From positions 2,226,055 to 2,290,054 of the forward strand of contig NW_022985550.1 of the NCBI RefSeq assembly GCF_010093815.1: DNA of 64,000 bases, written 5' to 3'. A program made the translations under genes and the position numbers. A model generated the notes under the pieces. The model had not been told where the DNA came from. It ran no database searches and saw only the letters and a program-made list of their open reading frames with translations. The stretch is from Pseudovirgaria hyperparasitica. Taxonomy: Eukaryota; Ascomycota; Dothideomycetes; Acrospermales; Acrospermaceae. Positions 5,183-46,261 of this stretch are shown here, piece after piece (the stretch's first letter is position 1; each line of letters starts with the position of its first letter).

Positions 5183-8100
5183 CGTCCATATTCACCAGGG
5201 CTCGTCGCGACACCAATTTAAAACATCGGTTCTTTTTCCAATGACATAGCTTGGTCTCGCAGCAAAATCGCCATAACTGTCGTATCAGCTGTAACATGCA
5301 TGCTATCTAACGCGACCAAACCGTCCTTGATGCTTTCTAAGAAACATGCGGTTTGGTAAGCTGCGCTGCAAGTTGAGCCTAGTGAGAGACTTTAGTATCT
5401 CGGCGTCGAGTGCGACCGCTGCGGAAACTGTGGGATGTATAATATGTCGGACAAGGCTGGCGATAAAGATAAAGCAGGCCGTGTGAGCCTCTGCCGTAAC
5501 GGGCTCCAGAAAGTGTGTCAGGACAATAGGACAAGAACAGCGCCAATCAAGTAGTTGCCCAGAAGGCGACCAGGCTAAGAGTACTGAGCTGCCGTCTGAC
5601 CAACATGCATTTCAGAGGACTGCTACATAGTCCTAGCAGCAATGAAAGAGGACAGGCTTCGGATGGATCATGATCTTTGAGGTGCGCCAGATTACGAATG
5701 CCGTTAGCGCAGAGATACTGCGGCAACTACCGGTTGATGGCGTGAATCGCGATACGGCAATGTCTCATTCATAATCCGTAGCCTTCTGAATCTTTGTTGT
5801 CGAATCGCATCACAGCGATTGACAGGAAGCTGCGCTACACCGGTACTTGTCCACAAGTCCAGCTTGACTACGATCGGGCAACAACGCCGCCGTCATTGGT
5901 ATTCGAGAATCCGATTTCGTTCCTCTGTCGTGGCTGAACGTTATCGAAAGTGCAACTGTTGGAAAGGCGTTTCTGTGGACCGGCCATTCCGACGAAGAGC
6001 CTCCAAGAGAGGGCGAAGACAAGGATCACTGCTGTGGCCTGCAGAAGATCTCCACTCGAGGCTGCAAGTCCGCACGAGGTGCTCGAGATCGGCGCTGCAT
6101 GCAGGTGCTTTCTTTAGCGTATAGCGTTTCGGATGGATCATGGAACCATTGGAACGAGGCGACGGAATATGCATGGATCTCTGAAGTCGCGTTCGCTGCA
6201 GTCTTTGAATGTTGGCGTACATGATGCAGCTCAACAAGGCGCAAACCGTGCATGCCTGACACTTATGTTCATCGCGTGATGAGTCGAAGATGTCCGCCTG
6301 ATAACATAACACGGATCTGGACTTTATTTGCCTGATGCAGCGTAGCACAAGGTGGATGGAGTCGTAACTGGTCGGAAACCTTTATACACGAGACATTGGC
6401 GTCCTGATTCTGCTTCGGACTTTGACGTCGCCGACCTCGGTCTAGATAACGCCAGGGCTAGCTGGTAGAGGTCCGCCAGTCCGGATAAATGTCCATTTGT
6501 CGGGGCTTGCTGTCTCTTTGAATCTCTCGCTGCTGCGACCCAGAAATCGAATTTTTGATACTCCGCGGGATACATCCCTCGGACACATCTGCTCATGCTG
6601 GGAAAGTCCATCTGAATGTCTCGTGTTGCAGCCAGATGAGTTCTGTTGCATGTATCAAGCTCACCCCGCAGTAGAGCGGTGTGTAGTCATGTTATCCCTT
6701 AGAAAGTATGCCTATACGTTGCCAAGCTCTCGCGAACTTTAAATCCATAGAATACGGAGCTTGAGAGCGGTGAAAATCACTTTTGTGTCCCGAGCAGCGT
6801 GTCGGCCAAATTCGCAGTGTATCTGCTGATAGCCAGGGAAGATGGAACGATCATCAGTGTCAAAGCACAGTTGAATAGCATTAAAAAGAAATGAGATTTG
6901 GGTATATAGTGCTGATCACAAACCTATTGATGTGCAGCGAGTTATCCACCTTAGAAACAAGCAGAGTTCCAACATCCTCACATTGCAGACGCGCAGGTCT
7001 TGATCGACACTTGCTCTGGGAGGGAACGCCAGGTCCTCCAGAAAGATTTTGTAATGTTACATAAACATTGCAACTGACGGCTGCGTAATCACCAAAAATG
7101 GTGACACGAGATGAAGAACCGACGAAACCACCCCTTGTCACGCCGCGATGCGTTGCATCATGACAAAAGTCAAGCCAGTGACGGGACGAAGGCCACCAAT
7201 GCTAGCCTTGAAACAGCGAAATAAAAGTGAAAGAAAAGCTTAAGTTAGAATGTTTGACGACTCCAGGCTGTAAAAGTACAGAGCCGAGCGGTATGCTCGT
7301 TGCAAGACACGGGGCCTACGATCCGAAAGGGGGAAACTGTGTTGAGTAGAAGTGCCGTAAGACACGAAAGCCTGGACTGGAATCGGATTGGGACTGATAC
7401 GCCGCGGCAGACAAGCTGATGGTCTCCAGTAGAATATATGAGGCCACTATGCAACAGGAAGCAGCGAATGAGGAAGCGGAAAGTGCTCATTAATACGAGA
7501 GAGCTGAGGTGGCCAGAAAGGATAGTTGCACGAATATGGTGTAGGTCCTCTCCTGATGTTATTATGCCTTCTTCAACACAATGCTAAAAAAGAAGCCGAG
7601 CCGAGCCTAGATCCATAGCTGACGCACCGTTGCCGATCGTCGAGGTGACGCAGAATGCTGTGGCCCAGATTTACACACTCTACGACCAAGTTAGCATATC
7701 TGTTCTACGCCTTGTGTGGTAAGACCCTGGAGCTAGAAATATAGTAGGCGGTTCTGGTGCTTGTGTTCTCACGGAAGACAATGAAGTAACAACTTACAGA
7801 ATGAAAATATTAATGCTTCTGTGAGCAAGGGGTGCAGGTTCTCAACTTGCAATTGCGACATTCGTAGATATACCAGTGTGGTCCGGAGTGACACAGCTGA
7901 CAGTTCCATACTATCAGGGTCGTATCTGATTTGATGACTTGGAAAGAGTGTTGGCAAGTTCCTGAGGCAGCCATTGCGATTGAGTGCTTGGTGTAGGATC
8001 TGTCGTGGGGTCAATGGTGGAGGGGGCGTGTCTATAAGTGTGGTCTGAAGCTTACCTGAATATGGAGTTCCTGATATGCAGATGTGGAGAACGATGGTAA

Positions 8101-12710: not shown

Positions 12711-13745
12711 ATGATGCTTCGTCCTGCTTCTCGGTTATTACGGCTGTCGCCCCTCCACTCAATCCCGCGCGTTGCGCCTTCACGCAGACTTCTGAGCACT
12801 GCACCCCCAAGTCAAAAGTCGAGATCTTTCAAGAACAAATTAGTGCGCCTGGCGCTAGCTGGAGGCGTTGTATATTTTTACAACACCACTGATATATTTG
12901 CGGAAGAGCCATCCTGTACGATAGATTGATGGAATCAGCCAATAATGTCATCCCCGTACTGACATCTCACTGCAGTCGTCCCACGGAGTGCCGAGTACGA
13001 GAGCGAACCTGAAAACCTTCCCACACTCGAAGCTCTTGCAACACAGCGAAAACAACAAAGAGCCAAGGTTGAAAGTAGACAGGATCAAAGCAACGCACAG
13101 CCAGCGCCAGTTACAGGAGACGAGCACGCGTCAGGTGGAGAGCCCAATGGCATAGAACAACTGGAGGAAGAAGCAGGCCAACAAGGTGCATTCAATCCGG
13201 AGACCGGCGAAATAAACTGGGACTGCCCATGCCTCGGTGGCATGGCCCACGGTCCATGCGGTGAAGAATTCAAGACAGCTTTCAGTTGTTTTGTATTTTC
13301 GGAGGCGGATCCCAAGGGGATGGACTGTATAGACAAGTTTCAGTAAGTACACCACTTCAATGAAGACAGGGAGCATACTCGGAAGGATACGGAACTCACG
13401 AAACACAGGGGCATGCAAACCTGCTTCCGAAAGTACCCAGAGATCTACGGCTCTGAACTCGAGGACGACGATGAAGATGAACAGCAAGCACAAGATAAAG
13501 ATGGTAGCCAAACTCGACCCGATCCCGAAACGACTCCTGATACATTGGCGCTGGCATCTAAAGATGATACAAGTATGCGTACAAGCACTGAGCAACCGAA
13601 ATACACGGTTGGCGAAAAAGTGGCGGATAGAGGCCAAGAATACACATCTAGCCATGATTCAGCCATCAAAGATAAGCGTGCTCCTGGACAGGTAGCCCAT
13701 CAAATAAAAGATCCTCACAGTAAAGCGACAGATGACAAATCGTAG
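12711..13745 (+). CDS. MIA40: Mia40, mitochondrial intermembrane space oxidoreductase
   Basis: Mia40 (Tim40) oxidises and traps small cysteine-rich proteins in the intermembrane space and passes electrons to Erv1. Exons 12711-12915, 12976-13342 and 13409-13745 give 302 aa; introns are 60 and 66 bases with GTACGA and GTAAGT donors. The N-terminus is an Arg/Ser-rich presequence (residues 1-40), followed by a membrane anchor ([15 protein letters not shown]) near 45-60. The functional core has the redox CPC pair (C152, C154) and the twin CX9C frame (C163/C173 and C186/C196), with all six cysteines present. The second intron lies inside the second CX9C helix. The tail is acidic and then hydrophilic, as in filamentous fungi. 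ATG 12711 is used; a second ATG follows at once. The neighbour downstream is another mitochondrial membrane protein in the same orientation. Confidence 0.97.
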
Positions 13746-14250
13746 GAGGACTTTGAATGGCTACAGAATAAGTCTAGGCCTAAAATGTACATTATGTAAA
13801 TAACCTTTTGATAGAGAACGACAGCGCCCTGGAACGGATACTAGAAAAAATCTCTATGATTATATATCGTAGCTGGCTAAAAGCTGGCTAATAGGTGATT
13901 CTGGCCATATAGTTAAATGCATGTCTTCACGTTGATGCAACAATCTTAATATAATAATAAGCTTAGTTCCGCCTTCCCCAATTTGGCTTGAGCATCTAAT
14001 AGTAGGTCTCCGACGCCGAGGTGGTGACGTCGTCTCCAAGAGCCCTAGACTGGTAACCGAAGATATACCGGCCCCAAGCTTGCTGCCCTGTTTCTCCTTG
14101 TGCGTCACACGACAAGCTTCCCAGTATCACGAGCATCTATTTGCGTTGACAAGTCACACTGGTCCTTTCTCATCTTCAAATTATCCAACAGCCTGGTATA
14201 TCGAGCTCTACCTCGCCCAAACCAGTCTCAATTCTCCATACGCCGCAGAT
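13746..14250. other. Spacer between MIA40 and OM14
   Basis: 505 bases holding the MIA40 3' end and the upstream region of the next gene. No further gene or repeat seen. Confidence 0.5.
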
Positions 14251-15044
14251 ATGAGCTCGTACGCAGACGTCGCGGCCAGTGGGCCACAGCAGAGTGCCGA
14301 AGAGGTCAGTTACGAAATAATACTATTGAAATGGTACATGCACTGACAGAACCTCGTAGGCGTAAGTGACTTTCTCCTATACTGTAAAACATTGCTCGTT
14401 GCAGTCGCTATACCTCGTGCATCATGTTCAACGCAACAGACACCTCTTACCAACACAAGCGCTCGACGTCACAACCGCACTAAACCCCTGCGAGATACAT
14501 GAGTTTCAAAGCATCAACCTCAACTAACATATTCCCTAGCCGTGCGCCCCCACCCACCGAAGTTGAATCCATAACCTCCGAATCTACCCACTCGCTCATC
14601 GACGTCGACACCCCACACGTCTCTACCGTCCCCTCAACCTTTTCATCCCAGGAAATCCAGACCGACACGCAAGCTGCTCGCATTGAGCGTGAAGAACAGG
14701 CAGCCGATGCACGCGCGAAGGCTCAGGCCGCAGCCGATAAAGCCAAGGCAAAGTCACGCCGCGCAGGTGGTATTTTGAGCAAGAACGCCGACAACCCGGT
14801 CGTGTTGGGCAACTTGGTGACGGCGGGCTTGCTGACGGGTGTGCTGGGCCTCGGTGCGTATAGAAAATATACTGCCGGCGAGTTGTCATGGAAGGTCGCG
14901 GGTGCATGGGCAGGTGCTGTTGGGCTATTTGCTGCGGCGGATTACTTTGTTTCGCAGTATGTTGTACCGGCCGATCGAGATGGAGAATGACTTTGCTAAC
15001 TGATGAGTAGACGCTTGTTCCAGAAATACCCCCCCAAGAAGTAG
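14251..15044 (+). CDS. OM14: OM14-like mitochondrial outer membrane protein
   Basis: Small outer-membrane protein of the fungal OM14 family, which in yeast is an abundant outer-membrane protein reported to bind ribosomes. Exons 14251-14304, 14360-14361 (2 bases), 14540-14956 and 15011-15044 give 168 aa. The order is a conserved N-terminus (SYADVAASGPQQS), the acidic SLIDVDTPHVSTVPS segment, a charged Ala/Lys/Arg-rich coiled region, then hydrophobic segments (LGNLVTAGLLTGVLGLGAY; VAGAWAGAVGLFAAADYFV). The last exon adds the basic tail RLFQKYPPKK, which reading through the final intron would lose. The 2-base exon gives EEARAPPPTEVE across the junctions. Joining exon 1 directly to exon 3 shifts the frame to an early stop. 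An alternative start joined through GTACGC at about 14259 would keep the frame but delete the conserved N-terminus. The name is recalled from family pattern. Confidence 0.82.
14360..14361 (+). other. Predicted 2-nt microexon (GC) in OM14
   Basis: Upstream intron 14305-14359 has the branch motif CACTGAC with its A at 14346. The first AG (14348-14349) is only 2-3 bases away, so the next one, GTAG ending at 14359, is the plausible acceptor. A strong GTAAGT donor begins at 14362. The next intron (14362-14539) ends with CTAACATATTCCCTAG. Only GC remains between the introns, and it keeps the frame. Confidence 0.6.
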
Positions 15045-15808
15045 ATGCATTAGCTTCAATGGAAACGCGGTGTTATGAAGCCGCATATCGCACAACCTGT
15101 GCCATCCTCCCCCCTCTCCTGTATTTATCTCTGCATTCCCTTCTCTTTAGCTGCTCTGGGAGACGTTAATGGTCATGTCACAACAATGGCAAGGTGGTGT
15201 CACAGATGATCGTGATGCGGTAAATGATAATATTCTTTCGCTTGCTCTGAAAACGGACCCTGAACTGATAGTGATCATAAGTTGACATTTGGACAGTCTC
15301 CAGTCGAGCAGATCCGCAGGTGTGGTCCGTATGCACGTCTGGATACGGTCAAGCATGTCTTACTCCATGGAAATAGATGGAACGGCTCGATCTGGGCATA
15401 GAAAGAGATGTTTGAATCAATCATCAACACGCAACGTAGTCGTGAGATCTGCCAAGTGCATGACAACGTGACATCCAAAGGGTTCTTGACCTGCTTTTCA
15501 AGTGACCCGGCCTGAGAAGACTGTGTCAGAAGGCTACGTATATACACTCGCACGTTCAATGATACCTCACGTACTTCTACCAGGCCTCTAAAACGGTTGT
15601 GCCATGCAAGAGTTCTCCAAAGCTTGCGCCCAAGCTGAAATACATCCCCCACCAAAGCTTGCCGTTGCGGATCCATACGTCAGAAATAATGACTATTATA
15701 AGTGGTTAATAAGCGGAATACGCTCACGCTATATGCCTGGTTACGGTGGCATGAAACGCCGTCTATAGAATACAAAATCTGCGAACTCGTGATGAAACGT
15801 CTAAACAT
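15045..15808. other. Convergent spacer, OM14 and ERG5 3' ends
   Basis: 764 bases between two converging genes. The open frames seen here (for example 15275-15676) have no recognisable content. Both 3' UTRs are expected here. Confidence 0.5.
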
Positions 15809-36595: not shown

Positions 36596-37600
36596 TCATT
36601 GGCGGTGTTCTAAGTCCCATTCGCTCCCGGCTTCACTCCCAACATCTGTCCAGCTGGAGGGAGTATCTCGCCCGTGCCCAACCTCACTAAATTCACTCAT
36701 GGCATCGTCATCATTGTGCAACGAGTGCAGGGAGGGTGACATAACGGCGATGTCATCAGCGTGTGTTCCGACAACGGAAGCACCAGTCGCAAACCCATCT
36801 GACGTCGGTGTAAGGATACCGGATGACATGGATGCGGCTCGGGAGTGGGGAGGAGAAACGAAGGAGTGGTAGGATTCTTCCGTGGAATAGACAGAGGCAT
36901 CTTGAGAATGTATGGCAGTAGCCCCGGCATCGTGAGCAAGGCTCTGATCAGGAATCATCTTAGGTGTATCGGCTGCCAGAGTCGAGGGTGACTGCAGGGC
37001 TTCCTGTGTATGATCATCGGCCGTTCCAATCAAGCTTTCATCATGTAGACCATCCAACTCATCAGCGAAAGGATTCGCAAAGTGAGTACCACACTTCAAA
37101 CCCGCTTCGGCACGTCCTCTAGCTTTGAGTCCACTGTGATCTTCGGTCGTCTCTCTTGCAGTTGTGGCGGCTTTGTCGGCTTTATTTCTCGCCCTTCGCT
37201 CCGACTTGAGCATGCCATCAGCACCAACAATGTCGTCGAAACTCTTGCCACTGTCAGCTCTCTTGACAGTGCGGTTCGTATGCCAGCCTTCGTCTTGGCC
37301 TACGCTTGCCAGCTCGTCCAAGTCAACAGCTACACCCTCGTCCCTCGCCTTACGAATTATAGCTGATCGTCGTCTTCGAATGAGCATCTCCTGTAGTCTG
37401 CGACGCTCTTCTTCCTCGGTCGTGCCACTGCTTGAATGTTGTGACCTTGCCGAACTATCGCCCTGGCCGTTCCAGGCTACGGCGATCTTTCGGCGGTTTT
37501 GTTCGAGCCATCGTCGAAATTCAGGGCTCTCGTAGATGGCGATTCCGGCGGCTATGATGATGCCGGACGCGAGGATGATGCCTGGGTGGCGAGTCAGCAT
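36596..37600 (-). CDS. Orphan membrane-anchored protein, 334 aa
   Basis: Single exon. It begins MLTRHPG and has one N-terminal transmembrane segment (IILASGIIIAAGIAIY, residues 9-24), then a basic stretch and an EEEERRRLQEMLIRRRRSAI coiled region. The rest is a hydrophilic, Ser/Asp-rich, largely disordered chain with a short FANPFADELDG motif near the middle and an acidic, Trp-bearing end (WTDVGSEAGSEWDLEH). I do not recognise a named family; the layout resembles hypothetical proteins conserved across filamentous fungi. It probably sits in an internal or mitochondrial membrane with its tail in the cytosol. The complementary strand also has open frames (37082-37535), which I treat as shadows. 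Confidence 0.75.
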   Translation of the reverse strand: MLTRHPGIILASGIIIAAGIAIYESPEFRRWLEQNRRKIAVAWNGQGDSSARSQHSSSGTTEEEERRRLQEMLIRRRRSAIIRKARDEGVAVDLDELASVGQDEGWHTNRTVKRADSGKSFDDIVGADGMLKSERRARNKADKAATTARETTEDHSGLKARGRAEAGLKCGTHFANPFADELDGLHDESLIGTADDHTQEALQSPSTLAADTPKMIPDQSLAHDAGATAIHSQDASVYSTEESYHSFVSPPHSRAASMSSGILTPTSDGFATGASVVGTHADDIAVMSPSLHSLHNDDDAMSEFSEVGHGRDTPSSWTDVGSEAGSEWDLEHRQ

Positions 37601-38388
37601 TTTCAGGGTCTGAGGGGTCTGAAGAGGAGAATAAATGGTAGCGTAGAGTGTACAAGGCTTTTATGCAGGTTTCAGGATCGAAAGGCCTTGTCACACGACT
37701 TGATCTACTGTTGCGGCAGTGCTTCGCCACGGGCGGCGTCATTGGTGCGATGGAGGGGCAAATACCTTTGGCAAGTGGGGCAGGCATATCGACTGTTTCG
37801 TCCTCAAGACAGCAGTATCTGCGATGATAGATGTCTGAACTATATTCAGATTCAGTTCACTCACTCGCTCGGAGAAGGAGAAGAAGACGAAAGCAACCTC
37901 GAGTAAGCTGATGAGAGCGGCCAATGTGGCGGTTAAGTAGGCATTGTGCAGTGGCGGCCCAGAGCTATGGCCGCGTATCCACCTGCCCCAGCTCACAGAA
38001 CCTTGGAACGGAGGTTGGTTCGAAGGTTCATAGTCGCGATGATTGGCTTGGTATTCGGACACTAGCCACAGTGCTTCCCAATTTTGATGTTGACGGTGAC
38101 ATCCTGTCTCAAAGTGTGACTTTCGTAGTGGAGTGACATGCAAGTGGACTGAATGCAAATTTGCCCAGATGTAGACCGTGAGCTTTTACTACCCTGTTAC
38201 TGTAGCTTATTAGTTCACGAGAAGAGCCGTTTCACGCGAACATATCTAATTTTACAACAAATTATTGAGACAAGTACAAATCCTACAAATCCTATTCCGA
38301 AGCTCCGTATATATGCTATTTATTGAATCTACTAGATTGTTAGATGAACCCTTTGTTTGCCCACAATCTACTGTCATATATTTCTCTA
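37601..38388. other. Spacer upstream of the orphan gene
   Basis: 788 bases between two minus-strand genes: promoter of the orphan gene and 3' UTR of SDH1. The terminal part (38200-38390) is AT-rich. No gene seen. Confidence 0.5.
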
Positions 38389-40540
38389 TTAGTAGGATCT
38401 CTTCTTTGGTGGCACATGCTGATGATAATTATCAGTACAAGAATTCACGATACTAAACAGGAGACTTGACTCACTTCGCACTCGCTCTGATCAAGCGTGT
38501 TCATCTGTACGGCTCTCGTCCCAAGTCGGACTTTGTCCGTGATGTCCTTTTGCCAACTCAAGCTGTGTTTCATCCACTTCTCATCTATCCGGTCAGGAAA
38601 GTCGTCTCGGGCGTGGCTTCCTCTGCTTTCCTGTCGCTCTAGAGCTGAGGACACAGTCTGTGCTGCATTAGTCAGGAGGTTCCGCGTTTCCAGTGTCTCG
38701 ATCAAGTCCGAATTCCAGATTAGAGACTTGTCCCGAACGTTCACATCTTCAGAGAAATCGTGACAGATCTTTTCCAGCTTCTCAACGCCTGTGGCTAGTG
38801 ATTCTTCTGTTCTGAAGACGGCTGCGTTAGCCTGCATGTTCGTTTGCATATCACCCCTGAGAGATGCGGTCAAGGTCTTGCCGTCAGCGTTCAGGAACTT
38901 TAGGACGTCCGTCAACGAATCATTTCCAATGTCCTTCGGTGCTGGTTCGTGCTTTTCACCCGGAGAGAATTTTGCTTGAATGTCCAATGCTGCGGCGCGC
39001 CCGAATACGACAATGTCTAACAGCGAATTTGCGCCTAGACGATTGGCACCATGAACACTAACGCAGGCGACTTCGCCAACTGCGTAGAGTCCCGGAACGG
39101 CATGTTCAGATCCGTCAGTTGAAACGTCGAGCACTTCGCCTTTGTAGTTTGTGGGAATACCACCCATGCAGTAATGCACGGTTGGTAGAATTGGAATCGG
39201 CTCTTACAGAGAGTCAGTTCTGACTCTCGTTTTGGGATTTCGTTACTCACGTTTTGTAATATCAACGCCCGCAAAGATAGCGGCTGTCTCCGCAATACCA
39301 GGCAGTCGTTCCATGATGATATCCTTAGGAAGATGGGATAGTTGCAAATGTATATGATCTTTATTTGGTCCAACGCCACGGCCTTGTAGAATCTCGAGGT
39401 TCTCAGATCGTGATACAACGTCTCGGGAGGCCAGATCTTTCGCCGTTGGAGCATATCGCTCCATGAACCGCTCTCCCTCGCTGTTTAGGAGGAAACCACC
39501 CTCACCTCGGGCGCCCTCTGTGATAAGCACACCGGCACCATAAATACCAGATGGATGGAACTGCACAAATTCCATGTCCTGGAGAGGTAAGCCTGCGCGT
39601 GCTGCCATAGCCGTGCCGTCTCCAGTTGAAGTATGCGCACTTGTGCAGCTAAAGTATGCCCGACCGTAACCTGAACGTTTGTTAGATAATCAAGATCGTA
39701 TCGATTGCGACATTGTATTTTACCTCCGGCAGCCAGCACAGTATTCTTCGCGAAGATGCGATGGAAAGTCCCATCTTCCATCGACATTGCAGTCACACCA
39801 ACACACTTGCCGTCAATCATCATCAGGTCCTGAGCGAAATACTCAATGAAGAACTTGCAATCATGCTTTAATGATTGACCGTATAGAGTGTGCAGCATAG
39901 CATGCCCTGTTCGGTCTGACACACATGCTGTTCGATAAGCCTGTCCTCCAGTCCCGAACTGTTGACTTTGTCCTCCAATAGCACGCTGATAGATCTTACC
40001 CTCTGACGTTCGTGAGAAAGGCATTCCATATCTCTCGAGTTCAATGATTGCTTCCTCTGCCTCGCGCGTCATGTAATGGATAGCATCTTGGTCGCCAAGC
40101 CAATCTGATCCTTTGACAGTATCGTACATATGCCATCGCCAATCGTCGTGATGGATATTTCCAAGCGCCGCGTTAATGCCTCCTTGCGCTGCTACAGTGT
40201 GTGATCTAGTTGGGAACTAGGTTCAGGTTAGAAGAGATGGACAAGTCTCGTGATCATGGCTCCCTACCAATTTTGTTATACATGCTGTATTCATGCCAGC
40301 TTCAACCAGACCCACAGCAGCCCTGAGGCCTGCACCACCAGCACCAATGACTATCGCGCTACAAAATGTCAGCTTCGTGCAACTTGTATAAAGAATGCCA
40401 TACTCATAGTGATGGTCGACGACGGTGTAATCCTTGAGATTAATTGAGGTCGCATAAGTGTGTCTTGCGCCTGGTAATGTTTTCCATTGATGTGCTTTAT
40501 ATCTAAGAAGGCCACGTAACGTAGAGCTTGAGGTGCGCAT
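38389..40540 (-). CDS. SDH1: Succinate dehydrogenase flavoprotein subunit
   Basis: FAD-carrying catalytic subunit of complex II; oxidises succinate to fumarate in the mitochondrial matrix. Six exons (minus strand): 40540-40404, 40358-40268, 40216-39724, 39670-39251, 39202-38475 and 38418-38389, giving 632 aa. A presequence ([20 protein letters not shown]) is followed by the FAD dinucleotide fold ([14 protein letters not shown]) and the segment [17 protein letters not shown] with the FAD-linking His. Then come the capping domain, [21 protein letters not shown], and the active-site [10 protein letters not shown] and [12 protein letters not shown]. The last exon is only 30 bases and gives HVPPKKRSY, the expected end of SDH1; read-through instead gives a wrong tail. 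The first ATG is 40540. Introns are 45-56 bases. Identity is certain by motif. Confidence 0.98.
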
Positions 40541-42887: not shown

Positions 42888-44842
42888 ATGGCACACTCAC
42901 ACGAAGAGCATCATCATGAGGAGGAGGAGAAGCTCAGGTTCTTCTCCTCACCCCTGAAACATGAACCAGCTTCCTTGCCAAGGCATGAATCCAAGATCAG
43001 CGACGAGGAGAACAGGAAGGATGGTCCACATACAACGAACAATGAGATACCCTGGAATCGGGACGGCCAATTACACGAAAGCCCTGAGTTTCATCGTCAC
43101 GAAGCAGCTCAGTCAATTGAGCTCTTCTATGACCTGTTCTTTGTTGCTAACCTTACGACTTTCACTGCGAATCACAACATCAATACAGTTCGAAGTGAGT
43201 TTTGCTTACGCTTTCATTCCAAAAAGGAGGCCTCGTTACTAATAATTGCTTAGCCTTGTCCTCATATGTCGGGTTTTTCTGTATTTTGTGGTTCACTTGG
43301 TACCAATCCACACTCTACGACGTTCGCTTCGCTGTCGATAATGTTGTGGAGCGTGTCTTCAAACTCGTAAACTTCGGTGTGATGATGGGACTTGCTGCCG
43401 TGGGATCCGGATTTGATCCCGACGATACGGCTAACAAGTGGAAGACATTCAGAGAATTGACTCTTATACTGATGGTTTCGAGACTGACGCTCGTTGCTCA
43501 GTACTCCTTCACGCTGTTTTGGACCAGAAAGTATCGGCAAATCGTACTCCCTCTTTTGATGGTCATCGCCATGAGCTTCATCGCGAGCATGGTATATCTT
43601 GGTCTGTACTTTGCTTTCCAGGAAGGCAAAGACACGAATGCTTATGTCGCCTGGTACATCGTTGCTGTACTCGAAACTGTCCTCACCACTTGCGTGTCTA
43701 TGAAGTGGCGAGTCATCAGTTTCAAAGGTACCCATATTCAAGAGAGGTATGCGGCATTCTTGTGTTCATGGAATGAATCAGCACTGACCTTGCTTTAGAC
43801 TGAGTTTACTGACCTTGATTATTCTTGGCGAGGGTATAATCCTTCTGTGCAAGAGTATATCATACATCATCAAGGGTTCGTGGGTCTTCACTTCCGATAC
43901 CATTGGTAGCATCATAGCTGCTCTTTTGATCATATACGGTGAGTTCATCCCGAGTAGGCTCGCCAACAATCACTGACACCTACCACAGGCCTTTACCAGG
44001 TGTATTTTGATAGAGTAGTCGAACATCATTTCGGTACGATCAGGCAGCAAATATGGTCGTTCGCCCATTTCCCTATGCATATTGCGCTTGTACTGGCTCT
44101 CGAAGGTACCCGTCAATTTGTCATCTGGAGACAAGCGATTCCTATGGTGGATACAGTCTACGCCAATGTTTTTCAATGGGATTTTACAGTGCCTCAGGCA
44201 CCAGAGGTCTTCGAATCCGCCATCACCACGATATGGGACTATGCCGTGTACTCTTTCTCGTTTGTGAAAGACGCGGATATCTCCAGCACGAACCAAACAG
44301 TCTACGATAGTCTGGCAACGATTGCAAACTTGACGAACACAGCTGACCTCGCCTGTAACGAGGATTTCACGGTCTGCACTGACGACGTGTACACTATCGA
44401 CGGAGCTCTCTTCGACATATTTGTTGCGATTACGAAGTTCGAGTTCGACTTGCTCGGAATAAAGGCTCCTAAGCCAAAGGGCGACAAGAAGCCAACTCAA
44501 TCAGACGTCATCACATCGTATAGCGCAATCTTCGACATGATCTTTACATATTTCTTCATCACGGCCGGTCTCACTCTCATCCTGATAGGTATGCTGCACT
44601 GGATAGCCACTCCGCCGAAGAAACTTGGCGACTACCTTCGTGGTGGTTCGAACTTTGTTATTGGTCTTGGTCTGTGTCTGCTTTCAACAATGTCACTAGC
44701 ACGAAGTCCCGACACTTACGGCAGCGTGGACAAGTACCAATATGGGTCTTGGGTTCTATCAACATTCGTATTCGCGTTGTTCGCTAACGTTGTGCTAAAC
44801 CATGTTCGCCGGCCTGCGTTCATGACGAAGACGCACAATTGA
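42888..44842 (+). CDS. LtrA-family multispanning membrane protein
   Basis: Protein of the 'low temperature requirement A' family, membrane proteins of uncertain biochemical role. Exons 42888-43194, 43254-43746, 43799-43938 and 43989-44842 give 597 aa; introns are 50-59 bases with GTGAGT, GTATGC and GTGAGT donors. The N-terminus is hydrophilic and His-rich (HSHEEHHHEEEE). The family signature is SIELFYDLFFVANLTTF, followed by about ten hydrophobic segments, including LIILGEGIILLCKSISYII. A large loop (about 400-500) with several N-x-S/T sites suggests that part is lumenal. ATG 42888 has a good context (ATCAAATGG). The assignment to LtrA rests on the ELFYDLFFVA and LGEG motifs, which are typical. 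The transported substrate, if any, is unknown. Confidence 0.9.
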
Positions 44843-45262: not shown

Positions 45263-46261
45263 TCAGGTGTATATAATTCCGCCATCCACTACCACCGTCT
45301 GTCCTGTCATGAAGTCGCTATCATCACTAGCCAGGAAGCCAACCACGTTGGCCACGTCCTCCGGCGTACTCGTCCTCCCCAGAGCCGTCAACTCCTCTAC
45401 ATACTTCTTAATTGTCTCGCCACGCTTGCGCCCATCCAGCTTCCCTAGCCCCTCATCGATCAAGTCCCACATCGCCGTGCCTACGATCCCCGGCGCATAC
45501 GCATTGACAGTGATCTTATGCCGCGAGACTTCCATCGCAAAGGCCTGCGTAAGACCTCTCACTAACACACCGAGTCAGCCACAATTCACCATCGCTGTGC
45601 CTGTCAACAGGAAACGAAATACTAACCAGCCCACTTCGATGCGCTGTAATGGCTCAACATGGGAAACGGCTTAAACGCCACGATACTCGCCGCGCCCAGA
45701 ATCTTCCCACCGCCTCCCTGTGCAATCATCTGCCGTGCTGCGCTCGCGTAACAGTTGTACACACCGAACACGTTGACCTCAAACATGCGGCGTAAATCCT
45801 GTTCGCTGAGATCGAGCAGTGGCTTGACCTGCGCGATGCCAGCGTTCGCGACCATGGTGGATAGGGGCCCGAGCGAGGATACCGAGTGCGCGACGAGTGC
45901 CTCGACTTCCGGGAGAACCGAAACATCGGCGGCATAGGTGGTTGTTTGCACAGAGTGGATGGACGAGAGAGAAGATGCGACCGAGGCGAGGTCGGCGGAT
46001 AGGGCAGGTACATCATTTAGGCAGAGGGCGTAGCCATCAGATGCTAGACGTGTTGCAATTGCTTTACCTCTGTTGCGAGTGTCAGATGGTTCGAGATGAG
46101 GGTCGAGGGTGTAATGAGTCTTACATCCCTCGACTTGCGCCTGTCACGATAGCTGTCTTGTCACGACGCACTGAGGTGCTGAAAGCTGCACGAGAAAACC
46201 GAATATTGGCAGGTCGGAGGCTCGAACATCTTCGCACGAACAAGTGACGGCTCAGTGCCAT
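45263..46261 (-). CDS. Short-chain dehydrogenase, acetoin/diacetyl reductase-like
   Basis: NAD(H)-dependent SDR of 292 aa. Exons (minus strand) 46261-46125, 46069-45627 and 45561-45263; introns 55 and 65 bases. It carries an extra N-terminus of about 33 residues rich in Arg/Ser (MALSRHLFVRRCSSLRPANI), which looks like a mitochondrial presequence. Then come the cofactor loop TGASRGIG (40-47), VANAG, Tyr187 and Lys191 (YSASK), and the end GQTVVVDGGIIYT. The segment after the catalytic helix (MWDLIDEGLGK, ITVNAYAPGIVGTAM) resembles bacterial acetoin reductase/2,3-butanediol dehydrogenase (BudC), hence the name. The substrate is inference. The first intron splits the cofactor loop and the second follows the catalytic helix, so a genomic read without splicing breaks both motifs. 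Confidence 0.88.

Follow-up and report, generated by a model that had tools for sequence, protein, structure and literature searches.

Gene content of the window and layout of the OM14-like gene

The window, i.e. the whole 64,000 nt stretch of Pseudovirgaria hyperparasitica contig NW_022985550.1 that was analysed, contains short introns and genes of fungal families, a content that suggests a filamentous ascomycete. Pfam matches were obtained for a succinate dehydrogenase flavoprotein, Serinc, a serine carboxypeptidase, a P450, an aldo/keto reductase and others, and genes matched in this way were the source of the training introns described below. The succinate dehydrogenase flavoprotein gene (36596–40540, minus strand) was apparently fused to the next gene by the gene finder. 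In the segment 4400–12700, which holds an acceptor–donor pair at 8082–8096 on the plus strand, no gene was called by the retrained finder, and the 8 open reading frames tested of the 25 with at least 90 aa gave no Pfam match. On the minus strand, 15512–15574 forms an intron-like stretch that scores 8.2–8.5 and belongs to no predicted gene, being located downstream of that for the P450; it is possibly an intron in a 3' untranslated region, part of a missed small gene, or a chance occurrence. Scans of the window with Rfam at the gathering threshold and for tRNA genes found none.

The gene upstream of the locus under study, at 12711–13745 on the plus strand, encodes a protein with a match to a CHCH domain (23.8 bits, cutoff 27.2). 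Its stop codon at 13743–13745 is our own reading, the gene finder having spliced past it. We take the product of this gene at about 12711–13745 to resemble Mia40. The OM14-like gene follows in the same direction, and the two apparent mitochondrial protein genes adjoin. The finder fused the OM14-like gene to the CHCH gene and made further fusions among other neighbours; its joint model was set aside, and enumeration was confined to the locus.

The OM14-like gene is likely to be made up of four coding exons of 54, 2 (GC), 417 and 34 nt, all on the plus strand. Exon 1 (14251–14304, 54 nt, phase 0) begins with an ATG, encodes MSSYADVAASGPQQSAEE, has a coding score of +3.07 nats and, by direct reading, ends at 14304 with the codon GAG. 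The start at 14251 was chosen by us; the gene finder used the same exon end, 14304, but fused exon 1 to the upstream gene. Intron 1 (14305–14359, 55 nt) has the form GTCAGT...TAG and a total score of 7.87. Its branch motif CACTGAC lies at 14341–14347, with the A at 14346 positioned 13 nt from the exon, and is followed by a nearest AG at 14348–14349 and a second at 14358–14359. The predicted 2-nt exon GC occupies 14360–14361 and would form GCC (Ala) with C14540. Intron 2 (14362–14539, 178 nt) has the form GTAAGT...CTAG, the GTAAGT being at 14362–14367, and includes the branch motif AACTAAC at 14522–14528, with the A at 14527 located 12 nt from the exon. Signals are complete in both introns, branch motifs included, and only 2 nt separate the acceptor of intron 1 from the donor of intron 2. 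Exon 3 (14540–14956, 417 nt) is entered in phase 2 (C|CGT GCG ...) and has a coding score of +20.5 nats as computed over 14540–14987; its end at 14956 is the choice of the gene finder. Intron 3 (14957–15010, 54 nt; GTATGT...TGCTAAC...TAG) has a donor score of 4.77 and a score for acceptor plus branch of 4.42, and the predicted terminal exon (15011–15044, 34 nt) encodes RLFQKYPPKK followed by the stop codon. The letters, coordinates and frames described in the initial annotation are confirmed.

The last intron and exon had been missed in that annotation. They replace the C-terminal YVVPADRDGE by RLFQKYPPKK, and 14957–15010 together with 15011–15044 probably fits better than the unspliced C-terminus. 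After this correction the Pfam OM14_C score of the whole protein rose from 17.6 to 21.3 bits (E from 0.0056 to 0.0004) and that of the C-terminal part from 19.5 to 23.4 bits, which supports both the terminal exon and the assignment as an OM14-like protein. The 168 aa given initially for the protein coincide with the length of the corrected model, but the C-terminus was probably wrong. The proposed OM14 identity is based on a sub-threshold match to the profile: at 21.3 bits the corrected protein does not reach the gathering cutoff of 26.1 bits, and nor does its C-terminal part at 23.4 bits; therefore, membership of OM14 is not claimed and the protein is called only OM14-like. A match to Pfam Herpes_UL56 (18 bits, cutoff 25) is below threshold and was taken as compositional. 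Relatives of the protein were sought in collections not meant for fungal nuclear genomes: viral contigs gave 7 pattern matches and genome contigs 57, none of which was confirmed, plasmids gave none, and the PDB sequences, likewise not meant for this purpose, gave two chains at E 0.5 and 0.57 with no relative of the protein. Peptide strings of the protein matched no text in the literature searched. OM14-like proteins of other filamentous ascomycetes presumably start with a similar SYADVA...EE.RAP stretch, which was not counted as evidence.

Reading frame and splice sites of the predicted 2-nt exon

As stated in the initial annotation, the exons that end at 14304 and start at 14540 are not joinable in frame. 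The direct join encodes MSSYADVAASGPQQSAEEPCAPTHRS and terminates 8 codons beyond exon 1. Since exon 3 opens with C|CGT, two upstream bases are required, and inclusion of GC restores the frame to give ...EEARAPPPTEV..., so that the peptide previously proposed for a GC exon ahead of the GTAAGT donor (14362) is a direct reading of the letters. When intron 1 is kept, a stop is reached after 13 further codons, and when intron 1 alone is removed, GCG TAA is read and a stop lies one codon past exon 1. The sole GT ahead of that stop is the GT of GTAAGT. Thus, with 14305–14359 removed and phase 0 giving GCG TAA, only the donor at 14362 saves the frame. The GC exon is frame-restoring in this sense, and in-frame models lacking a micro-exon also exist.

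Splice-site strength was evaluated using our own gene finder, which has no minimum exon length, was seeded with a hand-set fungal splice consensus, was run on both strands, and was retrained with the locus (13900–15100) left out. The final round yielded 60 predicted introns, and the position weight matrices were built from 51 of them, 45–139 nt long and all outside the locus; introns within the locus, those longer than 150 nt and those adjoining exons shorter than 15 nt were dropped. All training introns are predictions, several of them in genes with protein products largely covered by Pfam domain matches, and agreement with the seed consensus is partly built in because they come from a finder started from it.

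Compared with the 51 training introns, the four sites of introns 1 and 2 are ordinary to good. The donors are mid-range, that at 14305 scoring at least as high as 24 of the 51 training donors and that at 14362 (5.10) at least as high as 21. The acceptor at 14360 (5.87) equals or exceeds 36 of the 51 training acceptors and that at 14540 (5.19) equals or exceeds 26, and each of the other candidates among the 16 acceptors in 14290–14610 does so for at most 3. The preference for the acceptor at 14359, earlier argued from the spacing of branch and AG, is borne out by these scores, the alternative acceptor at 14350 reaching only 1.69, for which it was rejected. The intron 14305–14359 as a whole (7.87) outscores 39 of the 51 training introns, the other 12 being as high or higher. 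Order-2 random sequence totalling 384,000 bases contained 9 candidates at this level (0.023 per kb per strand), and the window, examined on both strands for lengths of up to 150 nt, contained 18. Twelve of the 18 are training introns, and the remaining six comprise intron 1 itself, three candidates with one splice site in common with a training intron, and two that overlap and begin at 15574 on the minus strand. Intron 2, at 178 nt, is longer than any of the 51 training introns, which were selected at up to 150 nt; five other introns of more than 178 nt were predicted in the window, some of them probable artefacts.

The finder used the GC exon in its first run and again once it had been retrained with the locus left out. 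A pruned enumeration with a flat exon-length prior then covered in-frame models that terminate at the 14988 stop, allowing up to three introns for the start at 14251 and at most two when every ATG in 13900–14620 was considered. Sites scoring below -4 and introns shorter than 30 nt were excluded, and a path was dropped once its running score fell below -25 (-10 in bootstraps); GC donors were permitted in the main enumeration and excluded from the bootstraps. The 2-nt exon model ranked first in every enumeration run, and the summed posterior of models with the GC exon was 0.984 for the start at 14251, 0.978 for that start when the tail of the intron-length distribution was made heavier, and 0.951 for all ATGs. 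The best model without the GC exon was only 3.3 nats below. When the introns were bootstrapped 40 times, the 2-nt model ranked first in 38 cases, with a posterior of 0.895 at the median, 0.396 at the 5% quantile and 0.314 at the minimum, and its lead over the best structure lacking the GC exon was 2.43 nats at the median and 0.01 nats at the 5% quantile. It came first at intron costs from -3 to -6 and lost at -7 and -8. Among the other sites considered, a donor at 14259 was rejected at 9.0 nats below the best model. An extra 12-nt exon at 14405–14416 (3.9 nats below) and intron 2 acceptors at 14495 or 14504 (3.5–4.0 nats below) were rejected as well, the GC exon being retained in each of these structures.

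The frequency of such an arrangement by chance was estimated from 4000 dinucleotide shuffles of 14311–14516. A frame-restoring exon of up to 15 nt with an equal summed site score arose in 10 of them; regardless of frame, exons of up to 15 nt with the same site score arose in 35 and exons of up to 2 nt in 5. In the whole window only three acceptor–donor pairs within 15 nt have an equal summed score while neither site falls below roughly the lower quartile: 8082–8096, the GC exon, and 43189–43194, which adjoins the donor of a training intron. Of the 82 exons predicted in the retrained run, 41 are internal, and the GC exon is the sole internal one shorter than 15 nt. The finder is not free of tiny-exon errors, as judged by its tiny first exons: three first exons shorter than 15 nt were called in the first run, and a 2-nt first exon at 46125–46126 (minus strand), in a gene related to short-chain dehydrogenases, is probably an artefact.

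Alternative structures for the N-terminal part

The initial annotation regarded the micro-exon as needed if exon 1 is to be used. The structure containing it is indeed the best-scoring one, but two in-frame rivals, one 3.3 and the other 4.1 nats lower, had been overlooked. The nearer rival starts translation at ATG 14499 (MSFKASTSTNIFPSRAPPP...), so that the N-terminus is encoded in a single exon, the upstream sequence is 5' untranslated and there is no micro-exon. This model is open in frame, needs no intron, lies 3.3 nats below the best one and takes first place once the penalty per intron reaches -7. However, it leaves unexplained the high-scoring intron 14305–14359 and the good branch and acceptor at 14522–14539, the ATG at 14499 is preceded by those at 14251, 14338 and 14424, and it has T at position -3, where ATG 14251 has G; as a whole the model appears unlikely. 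Slightly less probable again is a single 206-nt intron, with exon 1 extended to 14333, a donor GTACAT at 14334, the acceptor at 14540 and the protein EEVSYEIILLKCRAPPP. Here, too, the frame is kept, the sites are ordinary (donor 4.63, at least as high as 16 of the 51 training donors; acceptor 5.19) and the score is 4.1 nats below the best, but the stronger donors at 14305 and 14362 and the high-scoring intron 14305–14359 would all be bypassed, and the bootstrap margin against this model has a median of 4.0 and a 5% quantile of 1.47 nats.

Nested introns of the stwintron kind are established in ascomycetes (PMC12403724, PMC6616335), and an in-frame [D1,2] stwintron can be drawn at this locus. 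Exon 1 would end at 14303, G14304 would open an external intron whose donor G|TGACT is split by an internal intron 14305–14366, and the acceptor at 14540 would give QSAEDRAPPP. The reconstituted donor GTGACT scores only 0.10, where even the weakest of the 51 training donors reaches 1.87, and the acceptor AAG 14366 scores 2.69, so that the site sum is 8.2 versus 16.4 (5.39+5.87+5.10) for the 2-nt exon; moreover, the TAG at 14359 lies upstream of 14366 and closer to the same branch point. We consider this arrangement very improbable, and give as little weight to an assembly or sequencing indel, by which exon 1 would join exon 3 directly and the frame break would be an error in the DNA sequence. 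A run of five C at 14547–14551, near the start of exon 3, is a place where such an error might be sought, but the GC/GTAAGT arrangement would then be a coincidence of the kind seen in just 10 of 4000 shuffles.

Real 2-nt exons are far rarer than the flat exon-length prior implies, and a stern prior against them would outweigh the margins of 3.3 and 4.1 nats. Given this, the sequence alone would not settle the structure. The strength of intron 1, the GCG TAA frame that follows its removal and the shuffle rate of 10 in 4000 nevertheless favour the 2-nt exon, which is probably real.

Proposed splicing of the predicted 2-nt exon and comparison with known tiny exons

Splice sites in ascomycetes are paired by intron rather than exon definition, according to PMC12403724. 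If the spliceosome pairs sites across introns at this locus, introns 1 (55 nt) and 2 (178 nt) would be recognised independently, and, as both carry full signals, bridging across the GC exon would not be needed. The TAG and the GTAAGT are 2 nt apart and unlikely to be held by two spliceosomes together; hence, we infer that these sites are used one after the other and that the introns leave in turn. The ligated GC would complete an alanine codon (GC|C), restoring the frame to EEARAPPPTEV. More tentatively, the exon may be constitutive and kept across the relatives of this fungus, in a gene that would be OM14 itself, in which case the annotated N-termini of the lineage would be wrong. The exon might in that reading gate production of the protein, because skipping it or retaining intron 2 gives an early stop.

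The initial annotation described exons of this size as very rare, and the kind is indeed rare but already published. In Fusarium, CYP621A genes contain a 1-nt exon for which PMC12940212 cites 18 SRA reads and 20 orthologues; the authors call it the first 1-nt exon in a fungal gene and mention exons of 2–5 bp in Arabidopsis, Drosophila and humans. Like the CYP621A exon, the GC exon belongs to the smallest size class in a fungal nuclear gene, lies between tandem introns and was discovered from neighbouring exons that are out of phase; it differs in being 2 nt instead of 1 nt long, in not belonging to a P450 gene and in being predicted from sequence, whereas the CYP621A exon is confirmed by reads (PMC12940212). 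No fungal 2-nt exon was found among the literature matches listed, subscription literature being mostly outside the search, and micro-exon terms do not occur in the available part of PMC5639578.

In plants, 1-nt exons of APC11 and VPS55 have been validated by constructs or RT-PCR (PMC4674806, PMC8831610), and these share with the GC exon the restoration of the frame by an exon too small for exon definition. The VPS55 donors are GTRAGT, and introns flanking plant micro-exons are reported as likely to be removed consecutively, the upstream one being more often detained (PMC8831610). When the 1-nt APC11 exon A was replaced by TT, the TT was found in cDNA from Arabidopsis protoplasts, which shows that an exon of 2 nt is within the capacity of a spliceosome; in rice protoplasts the same construct was mis-spliced, with 56 further intron bases kept (PMC4674806).

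Other systems are less similar. Stwintrons (PMC12403724, PMC6616335) likewise involve two introns consecutively removed from one apparent long intron under intron definition, but leave no nucleotide between them, whereas 2 nt remain in the mRNA predicted here and the splice signals are uninterrupted. In the mitochondrial rnl genes of Ophiostoma and Ceratocystis (PMC12308204) a single base lies between two introns, also in a fungus; unlike the present case, these are group II introns in a ribosomal RNA gene and no spliceosome is involved. A micro-exon is also present in the filamentous ascomycete gene Xlr2 of Trichoderma virens (PMC11121469), but is regulated, its inclusion or skipping giving two isoforms. 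With respect to the protein, OM14 of yeast acts in the mitochondrial outer membrane as a receptor for cytosolic ribosomes (PMC4268710). The C-terminal region of the protein described here matches positions 4–67 of 70 of the OM14_C profile, but with a score under the curated cutoff and with the N-terminal part outside the profile.

Exons of this kind tend to escape gene-prediction programs. The present analysis suggests that a simple finder can flag them if no minimum is set for exon length, and that models of genes for small mitochondrial proteins may carry wrong N- and C-termini. If confirmed, the locus would provide a compact test case, with two introns and 235 nt altogether, of how spliceosomes deal with an acceptor–donor pair spaced too closely for joint binding. 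The GC exon is thus not without precedent and is probably a further case of a rare kind already published; should reads confirm it, a 2-nt exon of a fungal nuclear gene would stand beside the 1-nt exon of Fusarium CYP621A.
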